Origin: Nitrososphaerales archaeon
Lineage (GTDB): Archaea > Thermoproteota > Nitrososphaeria > Nitrososphaerales > Gagatemarchaeaceae
DNA: 64,000 bases
Direction of reading: 5' to 3'
Assembly (NCBI GenBank): GCA_032906765.1
Contig: JAJTZB010000002.1
Span: 62,001-126,000 of the forward strand
Below are positions 33,271 through 42,371 of the stretch, in pieces. The translations under genes were made by a program, and so were the position numbers. Numbering within the stretch: the first letter of the stretch is position 1; every line of letters begins with the position of its first letter. Below the pieces are notes generated by a model. It had not been told where the DNA came from. It ran no database searches and saw nothing but the letters and a program-made list of their open reading frames with translations.

Positions 33271-33480
33271 GTGAGCAGCCTCACAGCCGCGGTCTCGAGC
33301 TCCCTGAATGAGGTTGCCTATCCGGCGAGCAGGTCGAGGATCCTTTCTGCTGTAAACGGAAAGAAAGTCGAGGGATGGGAGCTGTCATTCTTCCTCGACC
33401 AGGCTCTGGGACGCAGGACGTACAACGACCTACGTGACGTCATGAAAGACCTCGAAGCTTGGCTCGAAGTCCAAGGCTAG
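33271..33480 (+). CDS. Small helical protein, unknown
   Basis: From GTG 33271 it encodes 69 residues, of the pattern YPASRSRILSAVNGKKVEGW followed by two helices ending DLEAWLEVQG. It resembles small DUF2795-like helical proteins, with low certainty. It overlaps the convergent ATP-grasp gene by 4 bases. Confidence 0.5.
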   Translation: MSSLTAAVSSSLNEVAYPASRSRILSAVNGKKVEGWELSFFLDQALGRRTYNDLRDVMKDLEAWLEVQG

Positions 33481-35804
33481 AGATAGCCCCAGCTCAGCAG
33501 CTTGTCGCTGTCGTGTGTCCAGCGTTGGCCTATGTCCGTCCTGTAGAACATGTTCGGTATCATCACATTCCTCACGTTCTGATACGCCTGCCTGATCGCG
33601 TCCGACATCGTCGCGCCAGACCCGGTGACAACCAAGGCATACCCCGAGTTTCCTGCTATGTGCCAGTCCCCTTCCTCCAGCTTCACCTCTCCGATGTGGA
33701 TGCCGTCAAGACTCTGTCTGCGGAAGAGTATCGTCGCGCCCTCAGAGTACTTCCTGAACGCCTTGTCGTCCTGGAAAGGCCAGGGGGGAATGCAGACCAC
33801 CACCCCGACCTGGTAACCCTTCTTCGTCTTCAGCTGTGCCTCCTTGCCTTGTGCCAGGTCAAACAGGAACGCCCCCCATTCGCTCGTGATGCCTTCCATG
33901 TGGATGCTGATGGTAGGGTACCCGAACCTCGATGTAAATTCGAGGGGCCAGATTCCCTTGGTGTTCACTATGCAGTTGATGTCGATGTAACCTACATACC
34001 TGCTCGCTGCGAGCTTGTCCTTCATCTTGAGGAGCGTGCTCTCGAAGACTGGGTTGCTCCGCGCCCAGTAGATCGAGGTGTTGCCGCACCAGTAGGGCTT
34101 CCCGTTCCTTCGCACGTACATCACATGATTCTCAACAGTTGCACAGTGGACGGTTCCGGCGTAGCTAACGACTGTGACATCCCTCGCGTCTATCCAGGAA
34201 TTAGCTTTCTTGACTCTTTCAATGACCTCATACTGGGCTCGCGACGCATCCGCATAGTGGTCAACAATCCATCTCCTTCCGGGTCGCTGTCGTGTCTTGA
34301 CGATGCCAAGCCTCCCGACTTTCAATAATGTCTCTTGGATATCGTCAGCGAGCCGCTTTGACGACGTGTAGAAGATCCGATAGCCGTTTCTCATATTCGT
34401 GCCATCTCCCAGTGAGAACCATTCGAGGAAGGTAGCAATCTGTCGCGGGCTCAGTTGCTTGATGAAATCGGGGACGAACTTCTCCAGTGCGCCGCCGAAT
34501 TGCGCGAGGTAGGAACCGAGTTGTTTGCTGTAACACAGGAATTCACCCTTCCTAGCGGCGAAATCCAACGGGAAACGGGTCAGCAAACGAGCAATCTTCT
34601 CGGACTTGTAGCCTTGCTTCTGAGCGATTCCTATTCTGAAGCTTCCAGTCCTGTCCGAAGCATACCCGTCAGCCAGCCATACGCCGAAGAACGCCAGCCA
34701 CGTGTCCATGGGGATTTCGAGGGGTCCCGTCTCTTGGAGAACCACCTGCCTTCCCTCGTAATGGCCCAAAGCTACTGACGGGAGGGTGAAAGTCGCACGT
34801 TCCACGCCGACCCACGTTCCCGTTCTCTTGATGAGGGATTGTGACTGGAGGTCCCTCGCCTTGACAAACTTGAATCTGTTTCTCTTCTTCTTGGCATCTT
34901 GCTGAGATTCTACGTACATGTTGTGGTCGAGCGTGACCATTATGTCTATGGACCTATTGCTGATTGAGACTAGCCTTTTGTGATGGTTGAATGAAACGAT
35001 GGCAGAAGGCCTCTGGTATTCGATGACATGCGTTGATGGGTTCAGTGTGCAGATCTCGTCCGATGCCGAAAGGTCCCTAAAGAGTTTCCAGCCATTGTTC
35101 GTAAGAACCTCGGTCTCGTCGTCGTAGCATCCCATCTCTCCGGTGCTCGGCCCGAGCTCCGTCGGGAAGAGCCTCTTGTGCTCGAAGTTCACGTTGATTG
35201 GCCGGACGAAGTCCTTCCCGTTGAAGAAAGCCCCCACCGCTACCTCCACGCCCTCGGCGAACTTCTGGATCTGAAACTCTTTGATCTTCTTCGACCAGTT
35301 CGCCTCGTAATGCTCGAGCACCTGAATCACGTCCTTTCCGTCCTCCTCCTGGCCGATGAAGAGCAGCTCCTTCTCGTCCTGGGCACTGCCGCTCGGCTTG
35401 ATGACGTACCTCTCGGGGTTTGCCTTCACGAACGCCACGGCCTCGTCGAACGACGTGAAGTCCCAGCTCGGGAGCGTGTTGACCCCTGCCTGCTTCAATT
35501 CAGCCTGGCCGAACTCCCTGTCGAGCTCGAGCTTGTCTGTGTAGGCGGAACCTCCAATGACGTGCCTCCCCTCGTTCCTGAGCTGCTCCGCCTTCGAGCC
35601 GAAGCCGATGTCGTCGAGGACTATCACGTCCGCCCAGTCCTTGTGAGGTTCCCATTCGTCCACCTTGTCGAAGAAACCATTGCCGACATCCTTCTCCGGT
35701 AGGTCGTGGCAGTAGAACTTCACATCGTGCCCTTCCTTCTTCAATTGCCATGCAAGGTCCGCAGAGAGAGCTTCGTACGTTACGAAGAGGAACTTCATCT
35801 TCAT
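33477..35804 (-). CDS. Phosphoribosylamine-glycine ligase-like ATP-grasp enzyme containing an intein
   Basis: The 775-residue precursor becomes about 425 residues after removal of residues 226-575. The host N-part has a pre-ATP-grasp fold (MKFLFVTYEALSADLAWQL) and ATP-binding YVIKPSGSAQDEKELLFIG. The C-part carries GYIDINCIVNTKGIWPLEF and RFGYPT. The junction GPSTGEMG / TSIYW equals the TGxMG motif of GAR synthetase (PurD). It ligates an amine and a carboxylate with ATP. Its divergent N-terminus means it may not be the main PurD. The start is ATG 35804. Confidence 0.75.
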   Translation of the reverse strand: MKMKFLFVTYEALSADLAWQLKKEGHDVKFYCHDLPEKDVGNGFFDKVDEWEPHKDWADVIVLDDIGFGSKAEQLRNEGRHVIGGSAYTDKLELDREFGQAELKQAGVNTLPSWDFTSFDEAVAFVKANPERYVIKPSGSAQDEKELLFIGQEEDGKDVIQVLEHYEANWSKKIKEFQIQKFAEGVEVAVGAFFNGKDFVRPINVNFEHKRLFPTELGPSTGEMGCYDDETEVLTNNGWKLFRDLSASDEICTLNPSTHVIEYQRPSAIVSFNHHKRLVSISNRSIDIMVTLDHNMYVESQQDAKKKRNRFKFVKARDLQSQSLIKRTGTWVGVERATFTLPSVALGHYEGRQVVLQETGPLEIPMDTWLAFFGVWLADGYASDRTGSFRIGIAQKQGYKSEKIARLLTRFPLDFAARKGEFLCYSKQLGSYLAQFGGALEKFVPDFIKQLSPRQIATFLEWFSLGDGTNMRNGYRIFYTSSKRLADDIQETLLKVGRLGIVKTRQRPGRRWIVDHYADASRAQYEVIERVKKANSWIDARDVTVVSYAGTVHCATVENHVMYVRRNGKPYWCGNTSIYWARSNPVFESTLLKMKDKLAASRYVGYIDINCIVNTKGIWPLEFTSRFGYPTISIHMEGITSEWGAFLFDLAQGKEAQLKTKKGYQVGVVVCIPPWPFQDDKAFRKYSEGATILFRRQSLDGIHIGEVKLEEGDWHIAGNSGYALVVTGSGATMSDAIRQAYQNVRNVMIPNMFYRTDIGQRWTHDSDKLLSWGYL
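34080..35129 (-). mobile_element. Intein with LAGLIDADG homing endonuclease
   Basis: The insert runs from Cys226 to Asn575 (350 residues). Block A is CYDDETEVLTNNGWK and block B VTLDHNMYV. Two LAGLIDADG-like helices are LAFFGVWLADG and TFLEWFSLGDG. Block F is HCATVENHVMYVRRNGKPYW, then CGN. The residue before the terminal Asn is Gly instead of the usual His, a variant seen in some inteins. The +1 extein residue is Thr. It sits in the catalytic GEMG/T motif, so splicing is needed for activity. Confidence 0.9.
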
Positions 35805-36369: not shown

Positions 36370-37710
36370 TCAGACTTGAACCAGATAGTCGAACCAGAAG
36401 TCACCCTTGCTGAATCCTTTGGGAAGTTTAGGGGGAATAGGCGGGGTAGCGTCAGCCATGGGCTTGGGGAGACCACTGGGTTTGACCCAATCGCTCCGCA
36501 CAATATTCGACTTGGATTTCTTGCCAATTGCCGTCATCAGTGGAACGCAAGGAATCGATGGCCATGGCACGCTTTGGGTAGAGACCATCGAGGCGAACTT
36601 CCCGGCGCTCATATTCTCAAGGGCTTTCTTGGGTGTCGCGTTGACACTGCCATGGTGGGCAACCTTGAAGAAGGTAATTCCAGGCAAGATGCTTTCCGGG
36701 TGCAAGTTCTCCAACCACCACAACCAGTTGCCGTATTGGGCGTCGCCGGGAAAGAGGAGATACTGACCTCGGAAGACAAACAGGACGACCAGGCTCTCGT
36801 TGTTCCTCACCTGGTCGAGGGCAAACGCCAACTCGTTGAGGGGCGAGGTGGCGACCCTTTGGAGCAGCTCTCTGTCGTCTTCGGCGAATAGTGATCGAAT
36901 CAGCTCGTCCGGGGGCTTTTCGAGCCTCCATTTTTTCGTGAAGGGTTGGAGGGCGCCAGAGGTCTGTTGGTCGGGGCCCAATCGCAAGTAGTGCTCGCTT
37001 GCTGGAGGGTCCATCTTCGCCAGGAACTCTTCCGATTGGGGCGGTCCTAAGATCTTGACTGAAAGGTCGGGAATTGGGACGTCTTTGGGACCAGTCAGTG
37101 CTTGGCCGGCTTTCATGTACGAAACTTTCGCCTTACCTTCAAATCCGGACTTCAGCAGCGCGATCGCGTGCTCGTTCCCCTTCAAGTTCTCGACTGCGTT
37201 TACTGCGTTCGGGTCGGCGGCGGCAGCAGCTTGCAAGTCCTGAGCTAGTCGCGCTGTCAGCGCTTGGTGCTTTTCCTGGAGACCTGCCGCCTGAGGGTTG
37301 TTCGGATCCCAGGTCCACGGCAGCCAGACACTACGCACGTCGAATGCCTTGAATTTGCTCGCGAACCTGTCGAAGCCCGCGACATGGTCTTGATGCGCAT
37401 GGGTGACGACGACTAGCTCTAGCTTCTTGTTCGTGACAGTGGCAACGTCATCCACAACCTTGCCTAGGGTTCCGATATCGCCGCTTGAATGGACTCCGCA
37501 GTCCACCAGAACGTGCGCGTATGGCTCTCCGGCCATGCTTCCCTTGGTCAGGGGAAAAGAAATCAGGAAGCAGTCGCCGAAACCTACGCGGTACATCCTG
37601 ATTCTGAGGGTCCCCCTGCTCGTCCCGACGATGCTTCCCTTGAGGGCGAGAGAGGAAACGGATCCCGTGGCCACCGGGGAAGTTTTCAGAGCCGTACTAC
37701 TGCCTGCCAT
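36370..37710 (-). CDS. ComEC/Rec2-like metallo-beta-lactamase-fold hydrolase
   Basis: This 446-residue soluble protein has VTHAHQDHVAGFDRF (His104, His106, Asp108, His109), LVDCGVHSSGDIG, LFPGDAQYGNW and KVAHHGSVNATPKKAL, the motifs of ComEC-type MBL domains, several of which cleave nucleic acids. An insert of about 150 residues lies between the motifs. It has no membrane domain. Its ATG begins one base after the stop of the upstream peptidase gene (TAG-C-ATG), so the two are coupled. The substrate is unknown. Confidence 0.8.
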   Translation of the reverse strand: MAGSSTALKTSPVATGSVSSLALKGSIVGTSRGTLRIRMYRVGFGDCFLISFPLTKGSMAGEPYAHVLVDCGVHSSGDIGTLGKVVDDVATVTNKKLELVVVTHAHQDHVAGFDRFASKFKAFDVRSVWLPWTWDPNNPQAAGLQEKHQALTARLAQDLQAAAAADPNAVNAVENLKGNEHAIALLKSGFEGKAKVSYMKAGQALTGPKDVPIPDLSVKILGPPQSEEFLAKMDPPASEHYLRLGPDQQTSGALQPFTKKWRLEKPPDELIRSLFAEDDRELLQRVATSPLNELAFALDQVRNNESLVVLFVFRGQYLLFPGDAQYGNWLWWLENLHPESILPGITFFKVAHHGSVNATPKKALENMSAGKFASMVSTQSVPWPSIPCVPLMTAIGKKSKSNIVRSDWVKPSGLPKPMADATPPIPPKLPKGFSKGDFWFDYLVQV

Positions 37711-37711
37711 G

Positions 37712-39538
37712 CTAATACCCTCTGTGAATCGCAGCGAAATTCTTTAGACGCTGCTGCAATTCCTCGGGAGTTGCATAGGCGGCCGAGCTGATGTCGGCCT
37801 CGCTACTAGTTAGATAATCACGTTGTCGCTTGAGCCGCGCGTTATCGGCATCGTCTTTTTCTTCGCCCACAGGTTTGTAGACCGCGTAACGTAGTTCGCC
37901 ACTCTTGGCCAAGATTAGCGTCGTGCCACCAAGGAAATTGAACTTCGGCGAGTCCGGGTCATCTGGGTCGGTCAGGACGGCTCTTCGCTGTATCAGCTCC
38001 GTCACAACATCAGCGAGAATCTTGCCATCGACACTGACGCGATTCACCACGTGGAAAGTGTGTGTTTCAATCGGTAAGCTTGGCGAGAGATGGAGCAGGG
38101 TGCGGTTGTCATCTGCAAACGAGTGGAGCACTTTGGCGTTGTTCTCTTCGCGAGCCTGCTCTTGACCTGCGCTTTCGGATTTCCAGACGTCGAAATCCAA
38201 GCCCGAGCACACGGGGGGGACTCGATTAGCGCCTACTTCTGGAGGCTGCCACAGCAATGATTCCTCTGAGTACGAGGCGGCTCCTCCAGGAACAATCCCT
38301 CGGGAGCGGAATGCATGGATAACGGCGGTTCGATACTCGTGCTCATCATCAGGTACCATGTCGTAGTCAGCCGTGATCATGGCGCGGAGGAAGTCTCCGA
38401 ACGTGATATCCACTGGCGGACAATAGTCCAGTGCTCTAATGCAGATGTTGAGGAAGTGCCCGGCGGTCTTCGCCGCCGTTTCCGCCAGTCTGTTCGCCAA
38501 GTCAGGGTGCAAATTACCCGACGACAGCTGCATTCCGGCCGCCTGCGAGATTCGCATCAAGTCCGAGATTCGTCGAACATAGGCGCTGAAATACGCGTCG
38601 AAGATCGCTGCCACAAGGATGGACCCTCGTCTGTGAGGTTCGGAGTACTTTTCAAGCTCCCTCGTGTTCGGTGGCGTACCTAGAGCGGCGCGCAAGCTCT
38701 TCCTGAGGCCCACTGCGTAGCCGAATTGTCGTGCGAGTCCTACGATTGGATTATCACCCGTAAGTTCGGACTGTAGCAGAGGTCCTCCGGGACCAGACGT
38801 GCTTTCCGCGGGGAGGTCCGTTCGATAAATCCTCCCGCCTGTCCGCTGGATCGTCTCGAGAAGAGCGTCTTTGTAGGAAAAATGCTGGAAGAGAGCGACC
38901 ATGTCAGCGAACGCCTCGTGAAACGCGGGGGCGTCGGGCCCTGTTGGCTCGGTCAAGAAACTACGCTGACTGTGAACAAGTGCATGCGTCGTTTCGTGAG
39001 CAATTATGTCGTGAGACAGGCAGGTGAACACGGTCTGACCAGGGAGGTTGAGTCCTTCGTCCTCCTCTGTCGCTGCGAAATAGCCGAAGACGAGGGCGGC
39101 CAGCTCTTCGGAGTAAAATGCGTTCGCTTCCAGCATCGCGTGCGGGAGGATTCGCAGTCGCTTGTGCTTGGAGTGTCTGCCGAAGGCCCACCTAACTCGA
39201 CGACCAAGCGCATGTTCAAAGCGCCTTATTGTCTCGCTTGCCACTGCGTAGACCATTTGCTGATGGAACTGCGGGTTCGACTCGTCCGGGGCTAGGCCGT
39301 CCTCGAGCAGAATGCTCCGCTGATTCAAGTCGACGGGTGGATAGTAGCAATCGTTGCTAGCGTCGTAGTCGATGATCTCCAGGTATTGGCCGATCGGCCC
39401 TTTGTCCAGATCTTCGAAGGGAACATTGACAGTCATGTAGTTTCCCAGGGTGCGACCTAGAGTTGGGTCGAAGGCATAGACTCTGAGGGGCCTGTACAAC
39501 GGCTGGTCGGATCTCGACACTCTGCCCTGGCTTCTCAA
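37712..39538 (-). CDS. Gluzincin-type zinc metallopeptidase, large
   Basis: In this 608-residue protein, the zinc motif IIAHETTHALVHS (His181, Glu182, His185) is followed at 207-212 by HEAFAD, giving the Glu208 and Asp212 of M4/gluzincin peptidases. There is no signal peptide or membrane segment, so it is intracellular, unlike thermolysin. The C-terminal 150 residues form a separate beta-rich domain (LILAKSGELRYAVYKP). The start is TTG 39538, and a TATA-like GCTTAAATATTAC lies about 35 bases upstream. It is the first gene of a two-gene operon with the MBL hydrolase. Confidence 0.8.
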   Translation of the reverse strand: MRSQGRVSRSDQPLYRPLRVYAFDPTLGRTLGNYMTVNVPFEDLDKGPIGQYLEIIDYDASNDCYYPPVDLNQRSILLEDGLAPDESNPQFHQQMVYAVASETIRRFEHALGRRVRWAFGRHSKHKRLRILPHAMLEANAFYSEELAALVFGYFAATEEDEGLNLPGQTVFTCLSHDIIAHETTHALVHSQRSFLTEPTGPDAPAFHEAFADMVALFQHFSYKDALLETIQRTGGRIYRTDLPAESTSGPGGPLLQSELTGDNPIVGLARQFGYAVGLRKSLRAALGTPPNTRELEKYSEPHRRGSILVAAIFDAYFSAYVRRISDLMRISQAAGMQLSSGNLHPDLANRLAETAAKTAGHFLNICIRALDYCPPVDITFGDFLRAMITADYDMVPDDEHEYRTAVIHAFRSRGIVPGGAASYSEESLLWQPPEVGANRVPPVCSGLDFDVWKSESAGQEQAREENNAKVLHSFADDNRTLLHLSPSLPIETHTFHVVNRVSVDGKILADVVTELIQRRAVLTDPDDPDSPKFNFLGGTTLILAKSGELRYAVYKPVGEEKDDADNARLKRQRDYLTSSEADISSAAYATPEELQQRLKNFAAIHRGY

Positions 39539-40151
39539 GCCTTGTCTAGATTGTTAAGCATATTTGTAATATTTAAGCAATAGAATTATGCGAATTCTGA
39601 CTTCCCGCCCAACGATTGTCGTCTTCGCTGGCCCGTTCGTGCAGGGGGCTCAAGTCGCCCACCCAAAACCTTCGAGTTCGAACCCGTTTCGGGCTGCGGC
39701 CAACTTGGGCCACACTTCAGGAGGGAAGCCGGAGGGGACGGCATCTGATCCCATGTCAATCAGGCGAGACTCGGATGACCATTTCAAAACAAGAAGATAC
39801 CCCTAGGGGTTCGAATCCCTTCCGCCCGCACCCACGGCCTCGTCCGTGGTTTGGGGACTAGAAACGGGGCGTACTTGCAGGCCAACGTTAGGCCTGTTAC
39901 AATGGAACCCAATGAATCTGCTGATGCTAGGGTCGAGACGCCCCCGAGTTCCGACTCCCCCGGTCCATACCCGCTTACCCTTCGTGGACTTGTAGGGCGT
40001 AGATCTATGAAGCGCTGTCGAGCCAAGACGAACCCAAGTCCAACATTGTTCTCGTTAGTGTCTATGTCGTGTGGCGACAATACAAGATTGTATTAACGAG
40101 CGGACGGAGGCAGGTCCGAAGGGGGACAGGGGAATTGAACCCGAAAGGATG
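39539..40151. other. Largely gene-free stretch with tRNA-like fragment
   Basis: No supported protein gene is seen. It holds the peptidase promoter, a tRNA 3'-end-like segment (39805-39830) and a CCACGG/CCGTGG hairpin (39832-39849). Confidence 0.4.
39805..39830 (+). pseudogene. tRNA 3'-fragment (T-arm plus acceptor strand), possible attachment site
   Basis: AGGGG-TTCGAAT-CCCTT has T-arm form and is followed by CCGCCCG and CA, like an acceptor 3' strand. No matching 5' half (CGGGCGG followed by D- and anticodon arms) lies upstream. Such orphan 3' halves are often left by elements that integrate into tRNA genes. The segment is short, so this could be chance. Confidence 0.3.
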
Positions 40152-40278
40152 CGGGCCCGGAGGGACTCGAACCCTCGATCTTCAGCTTCGGAGGCTGATG
40201 CCCTGATCCGTGTCTGGCGTGAGCACGCTACGAGGAGACGACGCTCGTTTCCCCTACGAATGTCTAGGCTACGGGCCC
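40152..40278 (-). tRNA. tRNA-Arg (CCG) with an intron in the D-loop
   Basis: Acceptor GGGCCCG (40278-40272) pairs with CGGGCCC next to discriminator G at 40152. The anticodon arm is TCAGC-CTCCGAA-GCTGA (anticodon CCG) and the T-arm is GAGGG-TTCGAGT-CCCTC. D-arm halves GCCTAGAC and GGATCAGGGC are separated by about 52 extra bases (about 40210-40261), so an intron sits near position 17/18, not the canonical 37/38. AGACA occurs at both intron borders. CCA is not encoded. It is divergent from argS. Confidence 0.85.
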
Positions 40279-40466
40279 GTTTTCGTCCTGCAGGCTTCGG
40301 TAGATAATGCTTTACGTCGCTCCTCGATGCAGGACGACTACGTGTACTGCGTTGGCGGATATGACGGCTCGACATCCCCACTGGCTTCCCTAAGTTGCTC
40401 TGGAGCCGCTCTCCATCGCAGGGGCAACACAACAGCTTTTATCAGCTCTCACGAGAAGCGACCCGA

Positions 40467-42371
40467 TTGAAGTTCCGCGAGTTCGAAGAGGAGGTCGGAA
40501 AGCTAGTGGTCGGCGCGTGCAAGTCCCTCGGCCACCCAGAGGTCGAACCGGACCTCTCGGGACCTCCCAACCAGTCCTACGGAGACCTCGCGAGCGCAGC
40601 TCCGCTCAGGCTGGCAAAGGCGCTAGGGCAGAAGCCAGGCGAGGTGGCCATCAGGATGGCAGACTGGGTAATGAGACAGTCCAAGAGTTACACGTATGTC
40701 GCGTCTGTCACCGCTCACCCAGGAGGGTACCTGAACTTCACCCTCAACTACCCGAAGTTCACGCTCGACGCAATCACGGAGGGGATGGCCGAGGGTCCGA
40801 TCGGGGGGTCCGAGTCTGGAAGTGGGAAGAGGGTAGCAATAGAGCATACCAACGTGAACCCGAACAAGGCCCTCCACATCGGACACGCCAGGAACTTGGT
40901 GCTCGGTGACTCGCTCGTCCGGGTGATGCGCCACCTAGGTTACGACGTGCAGGCCCTGAACTACATCGACGACTCCGGCGCGCAGGTCGCCGACATGATA
41001 GTGGGGTACAAGTTCTTGGGGATGAGCGACGTTGCACCCCCCGGCTCGAAGTTCGACTCCTACAGTGGAGAAAGCGTCTACATCAGGGTCACCCAGGAGT
41101 ACTCCTCGAACCCGGCCCTGAAGGAAAAGCAATCTCTTGTCCTGCGCGAGATAGAGAAAGGCGAAGGCGAGATGGCCCAGTACGCCCGCTCGATCGTGGA
41201 CAGGATCCTCGCAGCCCAACTGCTCACCTGCTGGCGCTTGGGCGCGACCTACGACCTCCTGAACTGGGAGTCTCAGATCGTCCACTCTGGGATGTGGTCG
41301 AAGCTCTTCGAGACTCTCAAGAAGAAAGGAACGGTCAGGTACGAGTCAGAGGGAGAGAACAAGGGCTGCTGGGTGATTCCTGACCCCGAGACAGGTGAGC
41401 AGAAGGTCGTGGTGCGCTCCGATGGGACTGTGGTCTACATTGCGAAGGACATACCGTATGCCGCTTGGAAGATAGGCCTGGTGGACGACCCCTTCGGGTA
41501 TGTGAAGTACGGCGGGGCACAGCCTGGAGGGAGGACTCTCTACACCACCACTCTGAAGGGTGGGAGCAAGGAGCCAAGGTTCGGGGCGGTTGACCTCGCC
41601 GTCTCTGTCATCGACGCGAGGCAGAGCTACCTGCAGAGAATCGTGGCCAAGGTCTTGGAGGGGATGGAACCCGGTTCAGCGAAGAGGTACCTCCACAGGG
41701 GCTATGAGGTAGTCGCTGTCTCGAAGAAGACTGCGAAACAGCTCGGCTTCGAGATAGAGGGAGAGTTCGCGCACATGTCGGGGAGGAAGGGGCTCTACGT
41801 GAACGTGGACGCCATGCTGGAGGCGCTCAAGAAGAAGGCGAGGGAAGAGACAAGGAAGCGGAACCCGACAGAGAGCGACGGATGGGTGGAAGACGTGGCG
41901 GAGGCCGTTGCTGTCGCAGCGCTTCGGTACGAGCTGCTGAAGCAAGACCCTGACAAGATGATAGTCTTTGACATCGAGGAGTCGCTCCGCTTCGAGGGAG
42001 ACACAGGTCCGTACCTACTGTACACATACGCAAGAGCAAGGCGCATCCTCGACAAGACAGCGGGACATCCGAAGATTGACGCAGAGTCTGCAGCCAAGCT
42101 CTCGAAACCTGTGGAAAGGGCGCTGGTGAAGCGACTATCGATGCTAGACAAGGCCGTTGTTTCAGCGGGCGAGTACCTGTCGCCCAAGGAGGTAGCCCGA
42201 TACTCCCACGACCTCGCGGTCGCCTTCAACGAGTTCTATGAGAAGGTCCAGGTGAACAGGGAGGAGGATTCCAGTCTCAGGGACGCAAGGGTGGCGCTGG
42301 TGGAGTCCGCGAGCAGGGTGCTCGCGCAGTCACTTCAGCTCATGGGTCTGCCCTACAAGGCGAGGATATGA
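40467..42371 (+). CDS. argS: Arginyl-tRNA synthetase
   Basis: From TTG 40467 it encodes 634 residues. The N-terminal Add-1 domain, the class I signature NPNKALHIGHARN, the INRDDSG-like NYIDDSGAQ, and the C-terminal anticodon-binding DALRB domain (YARARRIL, then YEKVQV) are present. It charges tRNA-Arg. A TATA-like CTTTTATC about 30 bases upstream supports the TTG over the upstream extension. Its stop overlaps the next gene (ATGA). Confidence 0.95.
   Translation: MKFREFEEEVGKLVVGACKSLGHPEVEPDLSGPPNQSYGDLASAAPLRLAKALGQKPGEVAIRMADWVMRQSKSYTYVASVTAHPGGYLNFTLNYPKFTLDAITEGMAEGPIGGSESGSGKRVAIEHTNVNPNKALHIGHARNLVLGDSLVRVMRHLGYDVQALNYIDDSGAQVADMIVGYKFLGMSDVAPPGSKFDSYSGESVYIRVTQEYSSNPALKEKQSLVLREIEKGEGEMAQYARSIVDRILAAQLLTCWRLGATYDLLNWESQIVHSGMWSKLFETLKKKGTVRYESEGENKGCWVIPDPETGEQKVVVRSDGTVVYIAKDIPYAAWKIGLVDDPFGYVKYGGAQPGGRTLYTTTLKGGSKEPRFGAVDLAVSVIDARQSYLQRIVAKVLEGMEPGSAKRYLHRGYEVVAVSKKTAKQLGFEIEGEFAHMSGRKGLYVNVDAMLEALKKKAREETRKRNPTESDGWVEDVAEAVAVAALRYELLKQDPDKMIVFDIEESLRFEGDTGPYLLYTYARARRILDKTAGHPKIDAESAAKLSKPVERALVKRLSMLDKAVVSAGEYLSPKEVARYSHDLAVAFNEFYEKVQVNREEDSSLRDARVALVESASRVLAQSLQLMGLPYKARI

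Follow-up and report, generated by a model that had tools for sequence, protein, structure and literature searches.

The Locus and Its Surroundings

The window that we analyzed is a stretch of 64,000 nucleotides from the genome of a Nitrososphaerales archaeon. On its minus strand lie two genes for large zinc enzymes, the first encoding a metallopeptidase and the second a ComEC-type MBL-fold hydrolase (Table 1). By the ORF calls the two are separated by one base, and the coding strand reads TTAGCATGG at the junction, i.e., TAG-C-ATG, the same back-to-back arrangement that the preliminary description had reported. Ahead of the protease start, the element CTTAAATA resembles a TATA box, and its spacing would suit transcription from an archaeal promoter that leaves a short leader.

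Table 1. Features of the metallopeptidase–MBL locus, numbered from the first letter of the window
Feature	Coordinates	Strand	Basis
Gluzincin (thermolysin-fold) metallopeptidase gene, putatively cytosolic product; 608 aa, 608 codons, TTG start	37712..39538	-	ORF; fold match; family conservation
HETTH zinc and catalytic motif, residues 181-185	38984..38998	-	H181, E182, H185 invariant in 49 relatives
HEAFAD, residues 207-212: third zinc ligand E208, plus D212	38903..38920	-	H207, E208, D212 invariant
C-terminal helix plus four-strand domain, residues 457-577	37808..38170	-	Model; weak fold matches
ComEC-type MBL-fold hydrolase gene, 446 aa, ATG start; predicted gated pro-nuclease	36370..37710	-	PF00753; LmuA, RTasMBL, Avs1a profiles; fold match 9ic4
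MBL metal-binding motif HAHQDH, residues 104-109	37384..37401	-	H104, H106, D108, H109 invariant
Insertion 1 of MBL core, approximately residues 135-200, helical in model	37111..37308	-	Model; alignment with Avs1a/HamM-type references
Insertion 2 of MBL core, approximately residues 225-300, low confidence	36811..37038	-	Model; between LGPP and NN-S core motifs
Pro256-Phe257, near-invariant dipeptide of insertion 2; candidate cleavage or plug site	36940..36945	-	Conservation counts
TATA-box-like CTTAAATA, approximately 35 bases upstream of protease start	39570..39577	-	Sequence; putative function
Orphan tRNA 3'-end-like fragment, upstream of module	39808..39830	+	Single match in own genome

A tRNA-like fragment had also been noted nearby. 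A tRNA 3'-end piece is indeed present upstream of the module, and it is the sole match in its own genome at two mismatches or fewer. Another T-arm-like stretch lies near 39665-39695, and the two are possibly old integration scars. Beyond them, a partial tRNA match on the minus strand (40160-40218; anticodon CCG, tRNA-Arg) adjoins the ArgRS gene (40395-42371). It was missed by ARAGORN run without introns and is probably, from its sequence, an intron-containing tRNA-Arg(CCG) gene with a disrupted D-arm. On the other side of the pair, the gene at 33477-35804 (minus strand) encodes a PurD-like ATP-grasp protein (GARS_A, GARS_C) that is interrupted at approximately residues 226-573 by a Hint/LAGLIDADG intein.

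We consider contamination unlikely: the pair sits inside a large contig with ordinary genes on both sides and similar GC, and the host genome is archaeal by its 16S rRNA. The 16S rRNA gene itself (L126, G000:C4:189899-192307) spans 2409 bases against a model of 1478 positions, which implies approximately 0.9 kb of inserted sequence.

The Metallopeptidase

The six motif residues listed for the protease in Table 1 are all invariant in an alignment of 49 relatives; the conservation alignments and structure-model alignments of both proteins were built without plasmid sequences. At E-values up to 1 the protease matches nothing in Pfam (Peptidase_M4 included), NCBIfam, or PADLOC; five of 53 relatives do reach Peptidase_M4, with a best E-value of 0.007. 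A profile of the protease family reaches thermolysin weakly. The predicted model (mean pLDDT 82), when compared with solved structures using Foldseek, retrieves aureolysin, vibriolysin, and thermolysin with E-values from 5e-5 to 1e-3, all of them gluzincins of the thermolysin type (family M4). The protease thus has the catalytic fold of this family and its HExxH motif with a downstream Glu as zinc ligand, while the Pfam M4 threshold is not reached. In contrast to family M4, it has neither a signal peptide nor a recognized propeptide, and it carries a C-terminal domain of its own.

Neither this protein nor the MBL protein shows a hydrophobic N-terminus or a membrane-type segment, so that both look cytosolic. 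These observations agree with the initial reading of the protease as a cytosolic gluzincin with the motifs HETTH and HEAFAD. The C-terminal domain has weak fold matches, all with E-values above 0.05, to the orange carotenoid protein, the CaMKII hub, and ARC6. These matches tentatively point to an NTF2-like fold, and the domain is a candidate sensor or dimerization domain.

The MBL Protein

In addition to the metal-binding motif, D323 and H352/H353 of the MBL protein are invariant in the family alignment. Judging from the residues present, the active sites of both enzymes are intact in the archaeal copy. The MBL protein matches PF00753. Its model has the MBL domain of ComEC (9ic4, E = 7e-13) as the best match among solved structures, followed by an MBL-fold phosphorylcholine esterase. 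This match and the lack of a membrane-type segment bear out the description of a ComEC-type MBL protein without a membrane domain.

A tie to the nucleases of conflict systems had been proposed as well, and the nearest profiles are in fact those of defense MBL proteins. Among PADLOC profiles LmuA is the best (2.5e-20), followed by RTasMBL (2e-11) and Avs1a (7e-10); the NCBIfam profile of Avs1a matches at 8e-15. LmuA is matched by 58 of 59 family members and RTasMBL by 57 of the same 59, and when reference Avs1a and HamM-type proteins were searched by profile, the E-values lay between 1e-14 and 3e-9. The protein is a ComEC-type, nuclease-like enzyme with predicted DNase activity.

A Candidate Gate in the MBL Core

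Using the Avs1a model, we retrieved true Avs1a proteins and relatives of the HamM type from Pseudomonas genomes as references and aligned them to the MBL family. Both groups have extra sequence at the same two core places, namely (i) from the HxHxDH/W region to the “LGPP” strand and (ii) from “LGPP” to “NN-S.” According to a recent experimental report, the insertions of HamM and Avs1a block the active site until the partner protease cuts at conserved isoleucines, a role that conserved glycines have in CanC of canu (PMC12799240).

Insertion 2 is disordered in our model (pLDDT about 50-68 over residues 241-290). It is also hypervariable, most columns near the dipeptide exceeding 3 bits of entropy, except for Pro256-Phe257, where Pro occurs in 52 and Phe in all of 55 sequences. 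A PF dipeptide is present in 53 of the 55 insertion-2 sequences, against 9.9 expected by shuffling. A conserved candidate site is found in insertion 2 only; the conserved PG near residue 201, which we considered as a second cut site for insertion 1, looks like ordinary MBL core and not like a gate. The search for a cleavage site in the MBL insert (approximately residues 125-275), as the preliminary description had advised, has therefore yielded one near-invariant candidate.

Thermolysin-type enzymes prefer a bulky hydrophobic residue at P1'. This preference fits Phe and makes Pro256-Phe257 a natural candidate for the cut site of the partner gluzincin. Pro at P1 is unusual, however, so the dipeptide might be a plug or a docking motif instead of the scissile bond.

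Conservation of the Pair

When the protease alone was used to find relatives, 80 genome loci were recovered. In 76 of them, from many bacterial phyla, the MBL gene lies directly downstream on the same strand, and the pairing is therefore not due to chance; two of the other four loci stop at a contig edge and two are without an MBL gene. The plasmid relatives, many of them on conjugative rhizobial plasmids, show the same pairing. Protease distances correlate with MBL distances at r = 0.77 (matrix comparison, host relatedness not separated out), as compared with a permutation maximum of 0.27, which shows that protease and MBL protein are co-inherited. That the two form a coupled module, as first suggested, is well supported by this adjacency; rare adjacency of the homologues, or a place in catabolic operons, would sink the idea, and we saw neither.

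Two unusual arrangements deserve mention. Loci L041 and L046 encode subtilase-gluzincin fusions with no detectable MBL gene downstream, possibly through loss of the partner or because the target is different. In a Desulfobulbaceae MAG (L003:1354-9626), two tandem gluzincin-MBL pairs flank a subtilase-like gene.

Distribution and Transfer into Archaea

The protease is absent from 60 relatives, and among 398 sampled genomes of the phylum it occurs in its own genome only, the 397 others being without it. In the trees of both proteins the archaeal pair is nearest to bacterial loci (L002; L082, on a Bradyrhizobium plasmid; and L003). Two further archaeal MAGs (L014, L042) group with Anaerolineae, again in both trees; since archaeal members thus stand at two separate places, the module entered archaea at least twice. 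As judged from these trees, the module is mainly bacterial and was gained horizontally by the archaeal host. For the same reasons we reject an archaeal innovation; the gluzincin version is not an archaeal specialty. We also considered a phage-borne origin. Viral contigs contained a single distant relative, to which one phage record without annotation can be added, so this is not a phage family.

Comparison with Known Protease-MBL Systems

Activation of MBL nucleases by a protease was demonstrated in late 2025, with partners of the trypsin-like and caspase-like kinds, in a report that also mentions “other diverse families” of partner proteases (PMC12799240). Among open-licence papers we found no gluzincin-MBL system. 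The other families go unnamed there, so the tree of that report may already include the gluzincin partner class, and priority is uncertain.

In Hachiman (HamM), AVAST type 1 (Avs1a/Avs1b), Lamassu, and DRT, the trypsin-MBL pairs likewise have a separate MBL gene beside the protease gene (PMC12799240), and their ComEC-type MBL protein carries two insertions whose positions in the core are the same as in the protein described here. The present pair differs in that the protease is a thermolysin-fold gluzincin whose gene lies upstream of the MBL gene, in that there is no fusion to a HamA, STAND, or LmuA-type core, and in that the candidate gate is Pro-Phe whereas theirs consists of conserved isoleucines. 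The archaeal locus has no STAND, HamA, LmuA, or RT core gene and hence does not classify as AVAST type 1, Hachiman, Lamassu, or DRT. Nor does the core pair include a recognized sensor ATPase or STAND protein.

Canu (caspase-nuclease; CanABC) is alike in having a stand-alone protease gene upstream, an MBL pro-nuclease downstream, and variable accessory genes (PMC12799240). Here, however, a zinc metallopeptidase (thermolysin fold, HETTH) stands in place of the caspase, the candidate site is Pro-Phe and not glycine, and no CanB or Ig-like domain was recognized.

The PADLOC candidate PDC-M48 (M48B is its MBL protein) and 6A-MBL of NCBIfam have an MBL partner distantly related to ours. Their models do not contain the protease, as follows from its lack of matches in either collection. 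For this reason we dropped a reading of PDC-M48 as “peptidase M48 plus MBL”; the M48 in that name is a serial number.

Genomic Context

On plasmids the neighbors of the pair include Hachiman, CBASS cyclase, SIR2, NACHT, restriction, and ubiquitin-like (ThiF, multiubiquitin) genes. In two Rhizobiaceae plasmids (L085:6818-15163 and L118:7818-16090) the genes for patatin, gluzincin, and MBL protein are followed directly by HamA/HamB of Hachiman in one direction, perhaps as a composite operon. On chromosomes the picture is different. At 16 loci (276 relatives in all) we compared 126 neighbors of the pair with 118 control genes located on the same contigs, and there was no enrichment of PADLOC families; by Pfam, the chromosomal neighbors are mostly ordinary accessory or housekeeping genes, apart from patatin. 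Chromosomal defense-island enrichment was thus not found against matched controls, and context supports defense only partly. Of the two checks that the preliminary description had advised, that for adjacency across genomes came out clearly, whereas defense-island context was seen on plasmids and not at the chromosomal loci compared. The proposed defense role itself is favored by the homology of the MBL protein and by the plasmid context and disfavored by the chromosomal result; by analogy, an antiviral role is plausible.

A Probable Protease-Gated Pro-nuclease

We think that the pair is probably a protease-gated pro-nuclease of the trypsin- or caspase-activated kind, in which the metalloprotease class and the Pro-Phe gate would be the new elements, and it may serve as an antiviral self-destruct switch. 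The MBL protein would be made as an inactive pro-nuclease, with the insertions in the MBL fold covering the metal site. A danger signal inside the cell, of which virus infection is the most plausible, would lead to an active cytosolic thermolysin-type protease, perhaps switched on via its C-terminal domain. The protease would then cut insertion 2 at or beside the conserved Pro-Phe, and the opened nuclease could degrade DNA indiscriminately, leading to cell death or arrest.

A hydrolase partner is added in 43 of 94 loci (patatin, 23; S8 subtilase, 15; DUF2235, 3; PLD, 2; alpha/beta hydrolase, 2; S1/P1 nuclease, 1), some loci carrying two partners and the subtilase being mostly fused to the protease N-terminus; these counts rest on seeds chosen from the same loci. 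The model could be extended to a stand-alone immune switch of two proteins that moved from bacteria to archaea at least twice. In it the protease would sense infection with its C-terminal domain and would also be the activator, which cuts the Pro-Phe gate and, in related loci, arms patatin, subtilase, or phospholipase as well. We regard so broad a version as unlikely. If it is true, one protease would release both DNA-destroying and membrane-destroying effectors.

The same partners could also be read as a three-part lytic module, in which the core is regulatory and killing, in many genomes, falls mainly to a lipase or another hydrolase, also activated by the protease, the archaeal copy being minimal or having lost its third part. 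The partner frequency speaks for such a module, and so does the PLD gene that each of the nearest relatives (L002 and L082) carries. However, the remaining 51 loci, including many isolates and the archaeal locus described here, have the two-gene core only, a search of the archaeal genome run without a positive control detected no PLD relative, and the partner counts depend on their seeds as stated. We find this reading improbable.

Rather doubtful, too, is a role outside defense, as a cytosolic housekeeping or stress pair in which a small phosphoester, phospholipid, or nucleotide is the substrate of the MBL protein, whose level the protease adjusts. The lipid-directed nature of the patatin, DUF2235, and PLD neighbors would suit this role, as would the structural match to phosphorylcholine esterase and the absence of PADLOC enrichment at chromosomal loci. 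It fits poorly with the very patchy spread within the phylum, with carriage on conjugative plasmids, with insertions that match the Avs1a/HamM gates, and with LmuA, a defense MBL, as the best family profile. Docking motifs are often short, linear, and without conserved flanks, as Pro-Phe is, but that the dipeptide functions as a fixed plug or as a docking element, with the protease hitting a viral or host target and the MBL protein acting independently, seems quite unlikely given that Avs1a/HamM have their homologous insertion cut as a gate (PMC12799240).

The gated pro-nuclease model offers for testing a prediction that concerns one residue pair, Pro-Phe, and it places a module of the protease-gated MBL kind in archaea. 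If the model is true, the pair would represent a third class that is widespread and combines an unrelated zinc protease with another gate motif and variable hydrolase partners, and the gated nuclease would be a general acceptor of activating proteases.
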